DNA of 10,984 nucleotides from Holosporales bacterium. GTDB lineage: Bacteria; Pseudomonadota; Alphaproteobacteria; RUG11792. The translations under genes and the position numbers were made by a program. Numbering within the stretch: the first letter of the stretch is position 1; every line of letters begins with the position of its first letter. Positions 18 through 10,984 of this stretch are shown one piece after another. Location: NCBI GenBank assembly GCA_031257415.1, contig JAIROR010000107.1:1-10984 (forward strand). Reading direction: 5' to 3'. The notes under the pieces were generated by a model. That model had not been told where the DNA came from and ran no database searches. It was given only the letters and a program-made list of their open reading frames with translations.

Positions 18-193
18 TGGTAGAATTATTCGGGGGCACCTTTTGAAAAAATTCTTCAGAATTTGCACAATTTTTGAGCAGCAAATAAGTAAAACAAAAT
101 ATAGTATTCCGAATACTGAAGCTCGAAAAGTTAACAAAGTCTTAATTTTTGGTTGGTTTTGCTGATTATTTTTTTGGAGCTGGGTTTGGGGAA
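18..193 (+). repeat. Left arm of 176-bp inverted repeat
   Basis: This stretch matches the reverse complement of 10809-10984 over 176 bp without gaps. By eye there are 14 mismatches, 13 of them transitions. The arm starts at the sequence TGGTAGAATTATTCGGGGG and ends at GGGGAA; beyond that the two flanks diverge at once. It contains small palindromes: AGTATTC-C-GAATACT near 102-116, and AAATTC/GAATTT near 49-64. Its reading frames differ between copies mainly at amino-acid-changing positions, so it does not look like conserved coding sequence. It may be a dispersed repeat or the edge of a larger mobile or duplicated unit. The outer limit is unknown because the partner arm runs to the window end. 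Confidence 0.9.
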
Positions 194-4322: not shown

Positions 4323-4353
4323 CTTCGCGCAAGAAAAATTTTTGTCCCATCCG

Positions 4354-4379
4354 AAATGAAATTTATAAATGAAATTTAT
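4354..4379. repeat. Exact 13-bp tandem duplication
   Basis: The unit AAATGAAATTTAT occurs twice head to tail with no mismatch. It lies just downstream of the MORN-gene terminator and upstream of the hypothetical gene ending at 3795. It has the same length as the duplication that disrupts the MORN reading frame. Confidence 0.9.
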
Positions 4380-4427
4380 AAAAGTGCGTGGGGGTGAGGT
4401 GATTCCAGTAGGAGACGCGCCACGCAC
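4378..4427 (-). terminator. Intrinsic terminator of the MORN-repeat gene
   Basis: Read on the minus strand, GTGCGTGG pairs perfectly with CCACGCAC across 28 nt and is followed directly by TTTTAT. The enclosed sequence can form an inner hairpin (roughly GTCTCC/GGAATC around a 4-nt loop, imperfect), which would shorten the effective loop. It starts 29 bp after the MORN stop codon. It would also separate the MORN gene from the hypothetical gene and suhB downstream. Confidence 0.65.
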
Positions 4428-4455: not shown

Positions 4456-5262
4456 TTATATCTTCATTTCTTCATTTTTATCTGTATACTTTCTTTCCAT
4501 TCTATCATTTCTCCAATTTCCTTCATATACATTCCCATTCCTCCATGTAAACTTACCTTTTCCTTCTTTTTTATCATTCTTAAAGTCTCCTTCATATACA
4601 TCTCCATTCACCCATACATACTTACCTTTTCCTTCTGCTGCATCATTCTTTACATCTCCTTCATATATGTCTCCATTTACGTGTACATGCTTACCTTTTT
4701 CTTCTCTTACTCCTTTCTTCCAATCTCCTTCATATACATCTCCATTGTTGTACATCATTTTACCTTTCCCTTCCATTACATCATTCTTAAAGTCTCCTTC
4801 ATATACATCTCCATTTACTAATACTAACTTGCCTTTCCCTTCCATTACATCATTCTTAAAGTCTCCTTCATATACATCTCCATTTACAAATACTAACTTG
4901 CCTTTTCCTTCCATTTTATCATTCTTAAAGTCTCCTTCATATACATCTTCATATACATCTCCATTTACAAATACTAACTTGCCTTTCCCTTCCATTACAT
5001 CATTCTTAAAGTCTCCTTCATATACATTCCCATTTGCAAATATATACTTACCTTTCCCTTCTCTTACATCATTCTTCCAATCTCCCTCATATACATCTTT
5101 ATTTACGTATATATACTTACCTTTTCCTTCTTTTGCTCCTTCCTTCCAATCTCCTTTATATACTTCTCCATTGTGGTACGTCATTGTTCCTTTTCCATCT
5201 CTCATCTCTTCGTCTTCTTCCCCAATAAAGTGTCCGTTGTATACTCCATCTCTATACGCCAT
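4456..5262 (-). CDS. MORN-repeat protein, separated from its signal peptide by a frameshift
   Basis: This frame encodes about ten MORN units of 23 residues (core NGDVYEGDFKNDVMEGKGKL), from about residue 31 to 255, then a charged tail. MORN repeats form elongated beta-hairpin rods that bind lipids or proteins; in bacteria they also occur in secreted and surface proteins. The ATG at 5262 lacks a usable ribosome binding site: the nearest AGGAG is about 17 nt upstream and serves an ATG at 5275 in another frame. An export-signal leader at 5252-5368 joins this frame if one copy of the 13-bp duplication at 5250-5275 is removed. The original product was probably a secreted protein of about 299 residues. 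One unit holds an in-frame DVYE duplication. A promoter upstream and a terminator downstream are intact. Confidence 0.8.
   Translation of the reverse strand: MAYRDGVYNGHFIGEEDEEMRDGKGTMTYHNGEVYKGDWKEGAKEGKGKYIYVNKDVYEGDWKNDVREGKGKYIFANGNVYEGDFKNDVMEGKGKLVFVNGDVYEDVYEGDFKNDKMEGKGKLVFVNGDVYEGDFKNDVMEGKGKLVLVNGDVYEGDFKNDVMEGKGKMMYNNGDVYEGDWKKGVREEKGKHVHVNGDIYEGDVKNDAAEGKGKYVWVNGDVYEGDFKNDKKEGKGKFTWRNGNVYEGNWRNDRMERKYTDKNEEMKI
4798..5027. repeat. Near-identical MORN coding repeats, 150 bp apart
   Basis: Positions 4798-4877 and 4948-5027 match over 80 bp with one visible mismatch, and the last 58 bp are identical. The 150-bp offset equals two 69-bp MORN units plus the 12-bp duplication at 4936-4959. 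Such identity at the DNA level points to recent duplication or conversion among units. Confidence 0.8.
4936..4959. repeat. Exact 12-bp tandem duplication inside a MORN unit
   Basis: TTCATATACATC occurs twice in tandem on the plus strand, encoding DVYE-DVYE on the minus strand. It is in frame and lengthens one MORN unit from 23 to 27 residues. Confidence 0.92.
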
Positions 5263-5275
5263 CTCTATACGCCAT
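5250..5275. repeat. Exact 13-bp tandem duplication that shifts the MORN frame
   Basis: On the minus strand ATGGCGTATAGAG is present twice (5275-5263 and 5262-5250) and is followed by ATGGAGTATAC. Because 13 is not a multiple of 3, the upstream frame meets TAG at 5252-5254. With one copy the frame reads MAYRDGVYNGH straight into the MORN repeats. Confidence 0.93.
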
Positions 5276-5368
5276 TACTCCTGTCTTTTGAAGTGTTGTT
5301 GCTTTACTATCGCTTACGCATGTTTGCGCCATCGCTATTGTTATAATCAAAAACGTTTTCCTAACCAT
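5252..5368 (-). pseudogene. Detached signal-peptide leader of the MORN-repeat gene
   Basis: This 38-codon open frame starts at ATG 5368 and stops at TAG 5252-5254. It encodes a short positive N-terminus (MVRK), a hydrophobic core (FLIITIAMA) and a plausible signal peptidase I site after A14 (AMA, then QTC). A polar linker follows and ends in VMAYRDGV. The last residues are the same as the first residues of the downstream MORN frame, because the DNA there is duplicated. This is strong evidence that the leader and the repeats were one gene. A promoter with good spacing lies just upstream. As it stands, translation from here yields only a signal peptide fragment, unless slippage or a population variant restores the frame. 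Confidence 0.75.
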
Positions 5369-5411: not shown

Positions 5412-5440
5412 ATAATACAATATAATGTGTCCAAGTTCAA
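5412..5440 (-). promoter_or_regulatory. Likely promoter of the MORN-repeat gene
   Basis: On the minus strand TTGAAC (5440-5435) and TATTAT (5417-5412) are separated by exactly 17 bp. The matches to the sigma-70 consensus are 4/6 and 5/6. The predicted start near 5405 leaves a leader of about 37 nt before the ATG at 5368, the start of the signal-peptide frame and not the internal ATG at 5262. Confidence 0.5.
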
Positions 5441-5645: not shown

Positions 5646-6449
5646 ATGAAAAATAATTACAGAAGTTGGTTAGTAATTGTTCTTGGTGGGGGACTTATTG
5701 CTGGTAGTGCGAATTGTAGTGATAGTGATGATGATGATGATGTTTATCAGGATGGGGAGACATATATCTCTGATGATGATCAATTGAGAGAGAGTGAGTA
5801 TGCTGAAAATGGAGGCAGCGAATGGGATCTCTCAGATTCAGAAGCGAATGAACAAGTCCCGAATGGGTACTGTATCTTCGGACCAGAAGACGTTAAGGAA
5901 GTTCTTAAGGAGGGGTACAATTACTTCGGACAAGGCGAGATTGTTAATAAAGCTCTTGAGGAAGCACTGAAATCTCCAGATTTAGACCCAAATTCTCCAG
6001 GTTTAGATCCAAATTCAATGGCGATTCGTGGATGCCTAAAAGTAAAGGAGCACGGGATTTATGTTGGTGATGGTGGGACTCTCACGTATAGGGAAGCTAG
6101 CGCCCTGGCATATGTGATCAAAGACATTTTGATCCTAATGAGAAAGGAGGCCGATGTCTATTATAAATATGATGCTATTGTTGAGTGTTATGGTAAAGAA
6201 TATGCTAATACTATGGGTATGATGCAATGTAATAATGCCATTGACAGGTTAAAACTTATGTTTTCGTTGCCCCCGGATAACGTAATTGCAGCGGCTAAGT
6301 CTAAAGGAAAGGTAATTGGAGTAGAAGTGCAGGATCCAAGCAAAAAGAGATTTTCAGAGAAATTTTACGGTTACGGGAAATACCCTAGAAGTTACGATCC
6401 CTACGAGTACTGGCCTGGAGACTATGATACTTCGAAGAAGTATTTATGA
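5646..6449 (+). CDS. Exported acidic protein of unknown function
   Basis: I do not recognise this family. The start has a ribosome binding site (GGGAG, about 9 nt before ATG). The N-terminus is a signal peptide: MKNNYRSW, hydrophobic to about residue 20, then AGSA before NC. The cysteine at 24 resembles a lipoprotein site, but ANC is not a canonical lipobox, so cleavage by signal peptidase I after A22 is as likely. Next comes a very acidic region (about 25-70) with a (GAT)5 codon run at 5727-5741. An imperfect 7-residue tandem repeat (SPDLDPN/SPGLDPN) lies at about 110-123, then a probably helical middle, and a Tyr-rich tail. The gene is divergent from the MORN gene, which also has an export signal. 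Its 3' end may be frameshifted (see 6424-6528). Confidence 0.75.
   Translation: MKNNYRSWLVIVLGGGLIAGSANCSDSDDDDDVYQDGETYISDDDQLRESEYAENGGSEWDLSDSEANEQVPNGYCIFGPEDVKEVLKEGYNYFGQGEIVNKALEEALKSPDLDPNSPGLDPNSMAIRGCLKVKEHGIYVGDGGTLTYREASALAYVIKDILILMRKEADVYYKYDAIVECYGKEYANTMGMMQCNNAIDRLKLMFSLPPDNVIAAAKSKGKVIGVEVQDPSKKRFSEKFYGYGKYPRSYDPYEYWPGDYDTSKKYL
5973..6014. repeat. Imperfect 21-bp tandem repeat in the acidic exported-protein gene
   Basis: Two 21-bp units beginning TCTCCAG and ending CCAAAT lie head to tail, differing at two positions. They encode SPDLDPN and SPGLDPN, so the repeat is in frame. Confidence 0.85.
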
Positions 6450-9106: not shown

Positions 9107-9490
9107 TTACATCACAGTAGCTTGCCCCGGAGCAACTATTGTTATCACTCCCCCAAATGAGCACATCGTTATATCTCCGAGATTTATGATAGGTGGGCCA
9201 CCGACCAAAATCTGCGGAGTCGAGGGGACCCACGGGGAAGTTACAGGGACGCATGGCATAGGAGTGAGCACTCCCATCGCGGCCGCAGTTGCCGCGGCAA
9301 CGGCTGGATTGGCAAGCGACTTGCAAACTCCAAACGGCATTATGTTGACGCACGGTATACAGCTTTGAATATTTCCACATGGAAGCCCCCCCGCCATCAC
9401 ACGAGCTGTCGGAATAACATTCAAAGTCGAAGGGGCCGCCCCAAACGGACACGTGCACACCGCTCCAGTTGTTGCCCTGATTACTCCCAC
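9107..9490 (-). CDS. PAAR-like domain protein (DUF4280)
   Basis: The 127-residue protein is a complete DUF4280/PAAR-like domain. Matching blocks run in order: GAVCTCPFG (9-17), PFGVCKSLANPAVAAATAAA (52-71), GVLTPMPC (73-80), PWVPSTPQILVGG (86-98), and CSFGGVITIVAPGQATVM at the end. PAAR and PAAR-like proteins form a metal-stabilised tip on type VI or related contractile spikes and can carry effectors. No toxin extension is present. It has eight cysteines (12, 14, 38, 44, 47, 56, 80, 110). The start is GTG at 9490; it gives the usual N-terminal length, while the in-frame ATG at 9499 is followed directly by TGA. There is no clear ribosome binding site. No VgrG, Hcp or sheath gene is in the window. 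Confidence 0.85.
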   Translation of the reverse strand: MGVIRATTGAVCTCPFGAAPSTLNVIPTARVMAGGLPCGNIQSCIPCVNIMPFGVCKSLANPAVAAATAAAMGVLTPMPCVPVTSPWVPSTPQILVGGPPIINLGDITMCSFGGVITIVAPGQATVM

Positions 9491-10653: not shown

Positions 10654-10774
10654 ACTGTTTCAACCAACGTATAAACTTGCTTCCTGCATAGTAGTACTTT
10701 AATACTTTTCCATCCTTCGTCGTATATTCGCCTTCTCCGCATTTTTCTCCTAAGGAATTGTTGCTGCCGCTGGG
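10652..10774 (-). pseudogene. Remnant of a MORN-like gene (C-terminal fragment)
   Basis: A 40-codon open stretch bounded upstream by TAA (10775-10777) ends at TGA 10652-10654 and lacks a start codon. It encodes PSGSNNSLGEKCGEGEYTTK, then DGKVLKYYYAGSKFIRWLKQ. The Gly-x-Gly-x-Tyr, Asp-Gly-Lys and Tyr-x-x-Gly-x-Lys-Phe spacing resembles MORN or related toxin-antitoxin-like beta repeats, though only one unit is left. A terminator directly follows, so this is the 3' end of a former gene whose 5' part was lost or shifted next to the inverted repeat. A different frame enters from the repeat arm (VGFADYFFGAGFGE) and could be joined to it by a frameshift, but this is speculative. Confidence 0.45.
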
Positions 10775-10808
10775 TTACGATGGGTTTCAGTCTCGTGGGG
10801 CAAATTTT

Positions 10809-10984
10809 TTCCCCAAATCCAGCTCCAAAAAAATAATCAGCAAAACCGACCAAAAATTAAGATTTTATTAACTTTTCGGCCCTCAGTATTCGAGATACTA
10901 CATTCTGTTTTACTTATTTGCCGCTCAAAAACCGTGCAAATTCTGAAGAATTTTTTCAAAAGGTGCCCCCGAATAATTCTACCA
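10809..10984 (-). repeat. Right arm of 176-bp inverted repeat
   Basis: This is the reverse-complement partner of 18-193, about 92% identical with no gaps. It ends exactly at the window edge, so the repeat may continue outside. If the window is a whole contig, an assembly break at this repeat would explain the ending. Confidence 0.9.

Follow-up and report, generated by a model that had tools for sequence, protein, structure and literature searches.

A 13-bp tandem duplication separates the leader from the repeats in one member of a MORN-repeat family in a duplication-rich Holosporales genome

We analysed a stretch of 10,984 nucleotides (the window). It corresponds to contig C32 in the draft genome of a symbiont-like Holosporales bacterium, an assembly of 806 kb in 110 contigs that is 64% complete. 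A MORN-repeat gene in the window is divided into two open reading frames by an exact 13-bp tandem duplication. We consider it likely that mutation recently shifted the frame of one redundant copy within a probably exported MORN family specific to this lineage, and that the duplication is not a dedicated switch.

The 13-bp unit ATGGCGTATAGAG occurs twice in exact tandem on the minus strand. The first copy (5275–5263) lies in the leader frame, and the second, identical copy (5262–5250) is the source of the ATG of the MORN frame. The leader ORF (5252–5368, minus strand, 38 aa) is signal-peptide-like (MVRKTFLIITIAMAQTCVS...) and runs from ATG 5368 to TAG 5254–5252. The MORN-repeat ORF (4456–5262, minus strand, 268 aa) starts at ATG 5262, 8 nt upstream of the leader stop, and the two frames overlap by 11 nt. 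Its product matches Pfam MORN (PF02493) in 8 stretches with an E-value of 2.9e-68 and a score of 222.2 bits, against a curated cut-off of 22.5. Both the duplication between the two frames and the limits of the two ORFs are thus as the preliminary description of this DNA had given them. As the copy is exact, lies inside the gene and has a unit that is not divisible by three, this is a duplication-driven frameshift: the upstream stretch and leader common to the family (see below) are present, but in a different frame from the repeats. The exact periodic run measures 30 bp, or 2.31 units, which falls short of the tract of many units that marks a simple-sequence contingency locus. It is followed by a degenerate third copy (5240–5249, minus strand), a near-repeat on which slippage could act. 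The gene contains another exact tandem duplication (4935–4960, minus strand), with a 12-bp unit, which is in frame.

A consensus scan found a promoter-like pair, TTGAAC-17-TATTAT, upstream of the leader (5412–5440, minus strand), within the stretch that is conserved among the 19 leader copies described below. However, promoter-like matches in the region were no commoner than in shuffled sequences (5 versus a mean of 6.3), and the promoter proposed earlier for this gene is plausible only. The proposed terminator is plausible likewise: at the 3′ end, a hairpin (4384–4427, minus strand; fold z −3.0), whose arms recur at C75 and C6, is followed by TTTT, but it was not listed by the terminator scan, in which the loop limit was 8. 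An intergenic motif around ATGGGACAAAAATTTTT is found in the window at 4336–4355 and also at C86 (L095:1298–1367), where it is tandemly repeated.

Elsewhere in the window, a divergent orphan ORF without a Pfam match (5646–6449, plus strand) combines a signal-like start with an acidic stretch and also contains an inexact repeat of 21 bp. A further ORF (9107–9490, minus strand) encodes a DUF4280 protein (PF14107, E 8.6e-26). We take this family to be PAAR-like, which makes it interesting in the context of type VI secretion. The two ends of the window (18–193, plus strand, and 10770–10984, minus strand) carry the same dispersed repeat, inverted and 92% identical. It has 24 matches of various lengths in this genome, many near contig ends, and it probably breaks the assembly.

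We compared leader copies across 34 contigs of the same genome (the window, the contigs with MORN or leader matches, and C1–C3). Nineteen copies, with the consensus MIKKIFLITTIAIVPACA, lie below the common upstream stretch. Thirteen of them are in frame with Pfam MORN repeats, in 10 complete ORFs and in three that are ended by a contig edge (C38, C39 and C76); leader and repeats therefore form one gene type, as had been supposed, and are not chance neighbours. A search of the whole genome with one cassette recovered 17 of the 19 leaders (not those of C22 and C23) together with a doubtful match at C20, and yielded no further clear copy. The window gene is not the only member to be split. At C73 the repeats resume in another frame after a TA run, a lesion that differs from that of the window, and this is a second firmly split member. 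The leader at C56 is probably split from its repeats as well; the out-of-frame piece that follows it is MORN-like by eye, without a Pfam MORN match. At C101:4956 the contig end cuts the ORF, which contains a MORN-like stretch by eye and again gives no Pfam MORN match, while lone leaders without repeats stand at C84:1734 and C101:1474. No member of the family that was leaderless by design was seen, those without a leader being either cut by a contig end or split. Outside this genome, a search with residues 1–45 of the C85 member returned three candidates, none of them at an E-value of 0.001. Judged from the leader residues only, the family would be exported via the Sec route.

Other MORN genes begin with a different, second type of leader. 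At C84 (L093:2165–2218) such a leader is out of frame with its MORN repeats, and a run of six G (2213–2218) lies between ATG 2165 and the repeat frame. At C75 (L089:568–700, minus strand) only the 3′ end of a MORN gene is present, consisting of the last codons and the hairpin with no repeats upstream; it is 96% identical over 50 bp to the 3′ end of the window gene and is a sign of recombination or gene loss.

The preliminary description had named two signs that would speak against a switch at this locus: homologues starting at the internal ATG, of which none was seen, and decay of the leader, which is weakly present. Of the 19 leaders, that of the window has diverged furthest (mean identity 8.1 of 18, versus 9.4–12.1), and in it alone the Ala of the inferred cleavage site, position 18, is missing. 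Relaxed constraint on this leader is suggested, but nothing stronger, because the other unjoined leaders (C56, C84 and C101) show no unusual drift and the repeats of the window gene are well formed. Nor is decay advanced, since the MORN frame is intact and open over 268 codons, the repeats score well and the duplication is exact.

Among the 35 genomes examined from the taxonomic family, PF02493 was matched in this genome alone, where 150 of 303 candidates were scored; the order is represented by the same 35 genomes. There are about 30 MORN loci here. Loci with a related CorC gene (L034–L038) come from two Holosporales drafts, presumably from termite guts, from one Holosporaceae and from two genomes called proteobacterium. 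When the 11 window proteins were compared with them, only CorC and YbeY matched at L034–L037 and only CorC at L038, with no match to the MORN gene at any of them. The DNA of the window locus gave weak matches in at most 3 of 59 relatives. In the literature searched, no MORN proteins in bacterial symbionts were found, and the Holosporales papers among the matches listed were without MORN. Passages of a review (PMC11909080) place termite-gut clades among the Holosporales and rate type VI secretion the most credible of the candidate systems; the term MORN does not occur in the text of that review. MORN repeats are described, in an excerpt of PMC7725318, as protein–protein interaction modules, and the protein tested there showed no membrane binding. 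The size of this MORN family and its signal-peptide-like leaders suggest a role in the periplasm or at the surface, possibly in contact with a host.

Short tandem duplications are in excess throughout this genome. With overlapping ones merged, we counted 120 exact tandem duplications with units of 10–60 bp in 385,090 bp (54 contigs). In 490,604 bp from relatives (40 contigs, sampled as two or three low-numbered contigs each from 17 of the 34 other genomes) there were 16, so that the density differs 9.6-fold. The density was 0.312 per kb, and no relative was above 0.082 per kb. Contigs selected on the basis of MORN or leader matches contained 89 duplications in 239 kb, but the excess extends beyond them: 31 were found in the 146 kb of the other 23 contigs. 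Of the 54 contigs, 18 were without any. Taking overlapping runs apart, there were 102 exact tandem runs with units of at least 10 bp in 265 kb of this genome, compared with a mean of 0.0 in order-2 Markov controls (two replicates), which excludes a chance origin for the run in the window. In two-copy duplications the repeat continued past the second unit for 5.3 nt on average, compared with 1.1 nt for random duplications. This points to slippage between short pre-existing repeats, and the window's unit fits the pattern because the sequence that follows it is a near copy.

The reading frame is largely respected by these duplications. At 32 MORN loci listed by hand (at least C8 and C71:7488 were left out, whilst C101:4956 and C56, neither of which has a duplication, were included despite having no Pfam match), 15 of 18 duplications were multiples of three. 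The out-of-frame duplication in the window is therefore an exception; the two others are C14:4419, at the 5′ edge of its locus, and C85:3178, at the 3′ end. Multiples of three accounted for 55 of 58 duplications in ORFs of at least 150 aa and for 17 of 54 outside such ORFs, with 8 at edges. The figure of 55 of 58 is partly circular, since an out-of-frame copy shortens its ORF, a circularity that the MORN-locus count avoids. Such a frame bias is what blind mutation filtered by selection on genes would give.

Two candidate sources of the duplications were considered and set aside. For end joining of the Ku type, no Ku match was found in any of the 35 family genomes, this one included; for loss of MutS, MutS_V was matched in 32 of the 35, again including this one. 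We draw no inference from absent genes as such, because the genome is 64% complete. Longer arrays were also observed. At C28 (L080:3791–3892) an ORF that looks MiaB-like by eye carries 7.85 exact repeats of a 13-bp unit at its 3′ end, a more classical variable-number array than that of the window, and at C86 (L095:8222–8312) an 11-bp unit is repeated 8.3 times at the contig end.

A frameshift by accident would most likely have arisen through strand slippage between imperfect repeats at the leader–repeat junction, giving the out-of-frame 13-bp duplication, in a genome that makes or keeps short exact tandem duplications about 10 times as often as its relatives. The exactness of the copies suggests that the event was recent. 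As assembled, the promoter and leader would give only a 38-aa peptide, the repeats would not be exported and the gene would be off. Presumably this reflects loss of function in a decaying or randomly lost copy within a redundant family. The frameshift may be reversible in principle; slippage could also remove a copy and so leave a mixed population.

The preliminary description suggested a possible on/off switch. In such a switch, gain and loss of the 13-bp unit would have to be frequent enough to toggle MORN export in the population. The exact short duplication that separates leader from repeats stands, but the switch is not established by it and in our judgement is unlikely. The exactness of the duplication, the conserved upstream stretch and the intact repeats would suit a switch, as would a genome rich in short duplications and the precedent of capsule loss by tandem duplication given in part of PMC4022640. 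Nonetheless, we prefer an accident because the process is genome-wide, with duplications scattered rather than placed at this gene, because there are only 2.3 copies, where a section of one review ties the switching rate to repeat number (PMC11868660), and because the other broken members have different lesions. The drift of the window leader also argues against a switch, and only the two-copy state was seen, with no near-identical relative among the 120 best matches listed.

It is similarly doubtful that the lineage is a hyper-duplicating one, in which the roughly 30 MORN loci are reshaped by short duplications, those in frame remodelling the exported proteins and those out of frame silencing them randomly and reversibly. 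Were this so, each cell would show a different MORN set without a dedicated recombinase or a long repeat tract.

A re-purposed two-ORF arrangement, where ribosomes end the leader at 5254–5252 and restart at ATG 5262 so that the MORN protein stays intracellular, is somewhat more improbable. Restart is possible given a MORN start just ahead of the leader stop, and the overlapping frames and open repeats are consistent with it, but by eye there is no well-placed ribosome-binding sequence for 5262, that ATG is itself part of the duplicated unit, and no family member built without a leader was seen. An assembly artefact, with the second copy absent from the organism, is the least probable explanation: the draft does contain many similar paralogues among its 110 contigs, but the 13-mer has no further occurrence across the 54 contigs searched, so no paralogue on them supplies it, the duplications elsewhere respect the reading frame, as artefacts would not, and a 30-bp run would fit inside a short read.

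A more interesting result than the putative switch is the duplication-prone character of the genome, together with its roughly 30 MORN loci. If the duplications are active, the genome would be a natural experiment on the formation and reversal of short tandem duplications, and would show whether a higher duplication rate is enough by itself to diversify the exported proteins of a symbiont. If they are inactive, the locus would be no more than a broken gene copy of the usual kind within an expanding family. In both cases, a MORN family this large, found in one of 35 family genomes, is worth study as a possible host-contact repertoire.

The locus can be compared with several known systems. By sequence, the closest matches with a solved structure are MORN1 proteins, e.g. 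6t4r and 6t6q (best match E 1e-48); these share the same 23-residue repeats (PF02493) but are eukaryotic, as their entry names in part indicate, whereas the family described here has bacterial signal-peptide-like leaders. In pneumococcal capsule genes, as here, a short exact tandem duplication within a gene disrupts the frame and could later disappear; Waite et al. (2001, 2003) reportedly demonstrated switching there, phase variation by spontaneous tandem duplication according to their titles, whereas in the window one state was seen and duplications occur genome-wide. In principle, switching through tandem duplication is known: part of PMC4022640 describes pneumococcal capsule lost via a tandem duplication inside a capsule gene, with citations of studies on phase variation driven by duplication, and part of PMC12817950 deals with phase-variable tandem-repeat copy number in Mycobacterium tuberculosis. 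Simple-sequence-repeat contingency loci, as outlined in sections of PMC11868660, resemble the window in having a repeat-driven frameshift near the start of the gene for a probably exported protein, but they have a many-copy tract, whereas the window has 2.3 copies of a 13-bp unit that does not recur at other members. Finally, as with pseudogenes in expanding paralogue families, one redundant out-of-frame copy stands beside intact relatives; the difference is that the lesion in the window is exact and recent-looking, and the frame downstream of it is still open.
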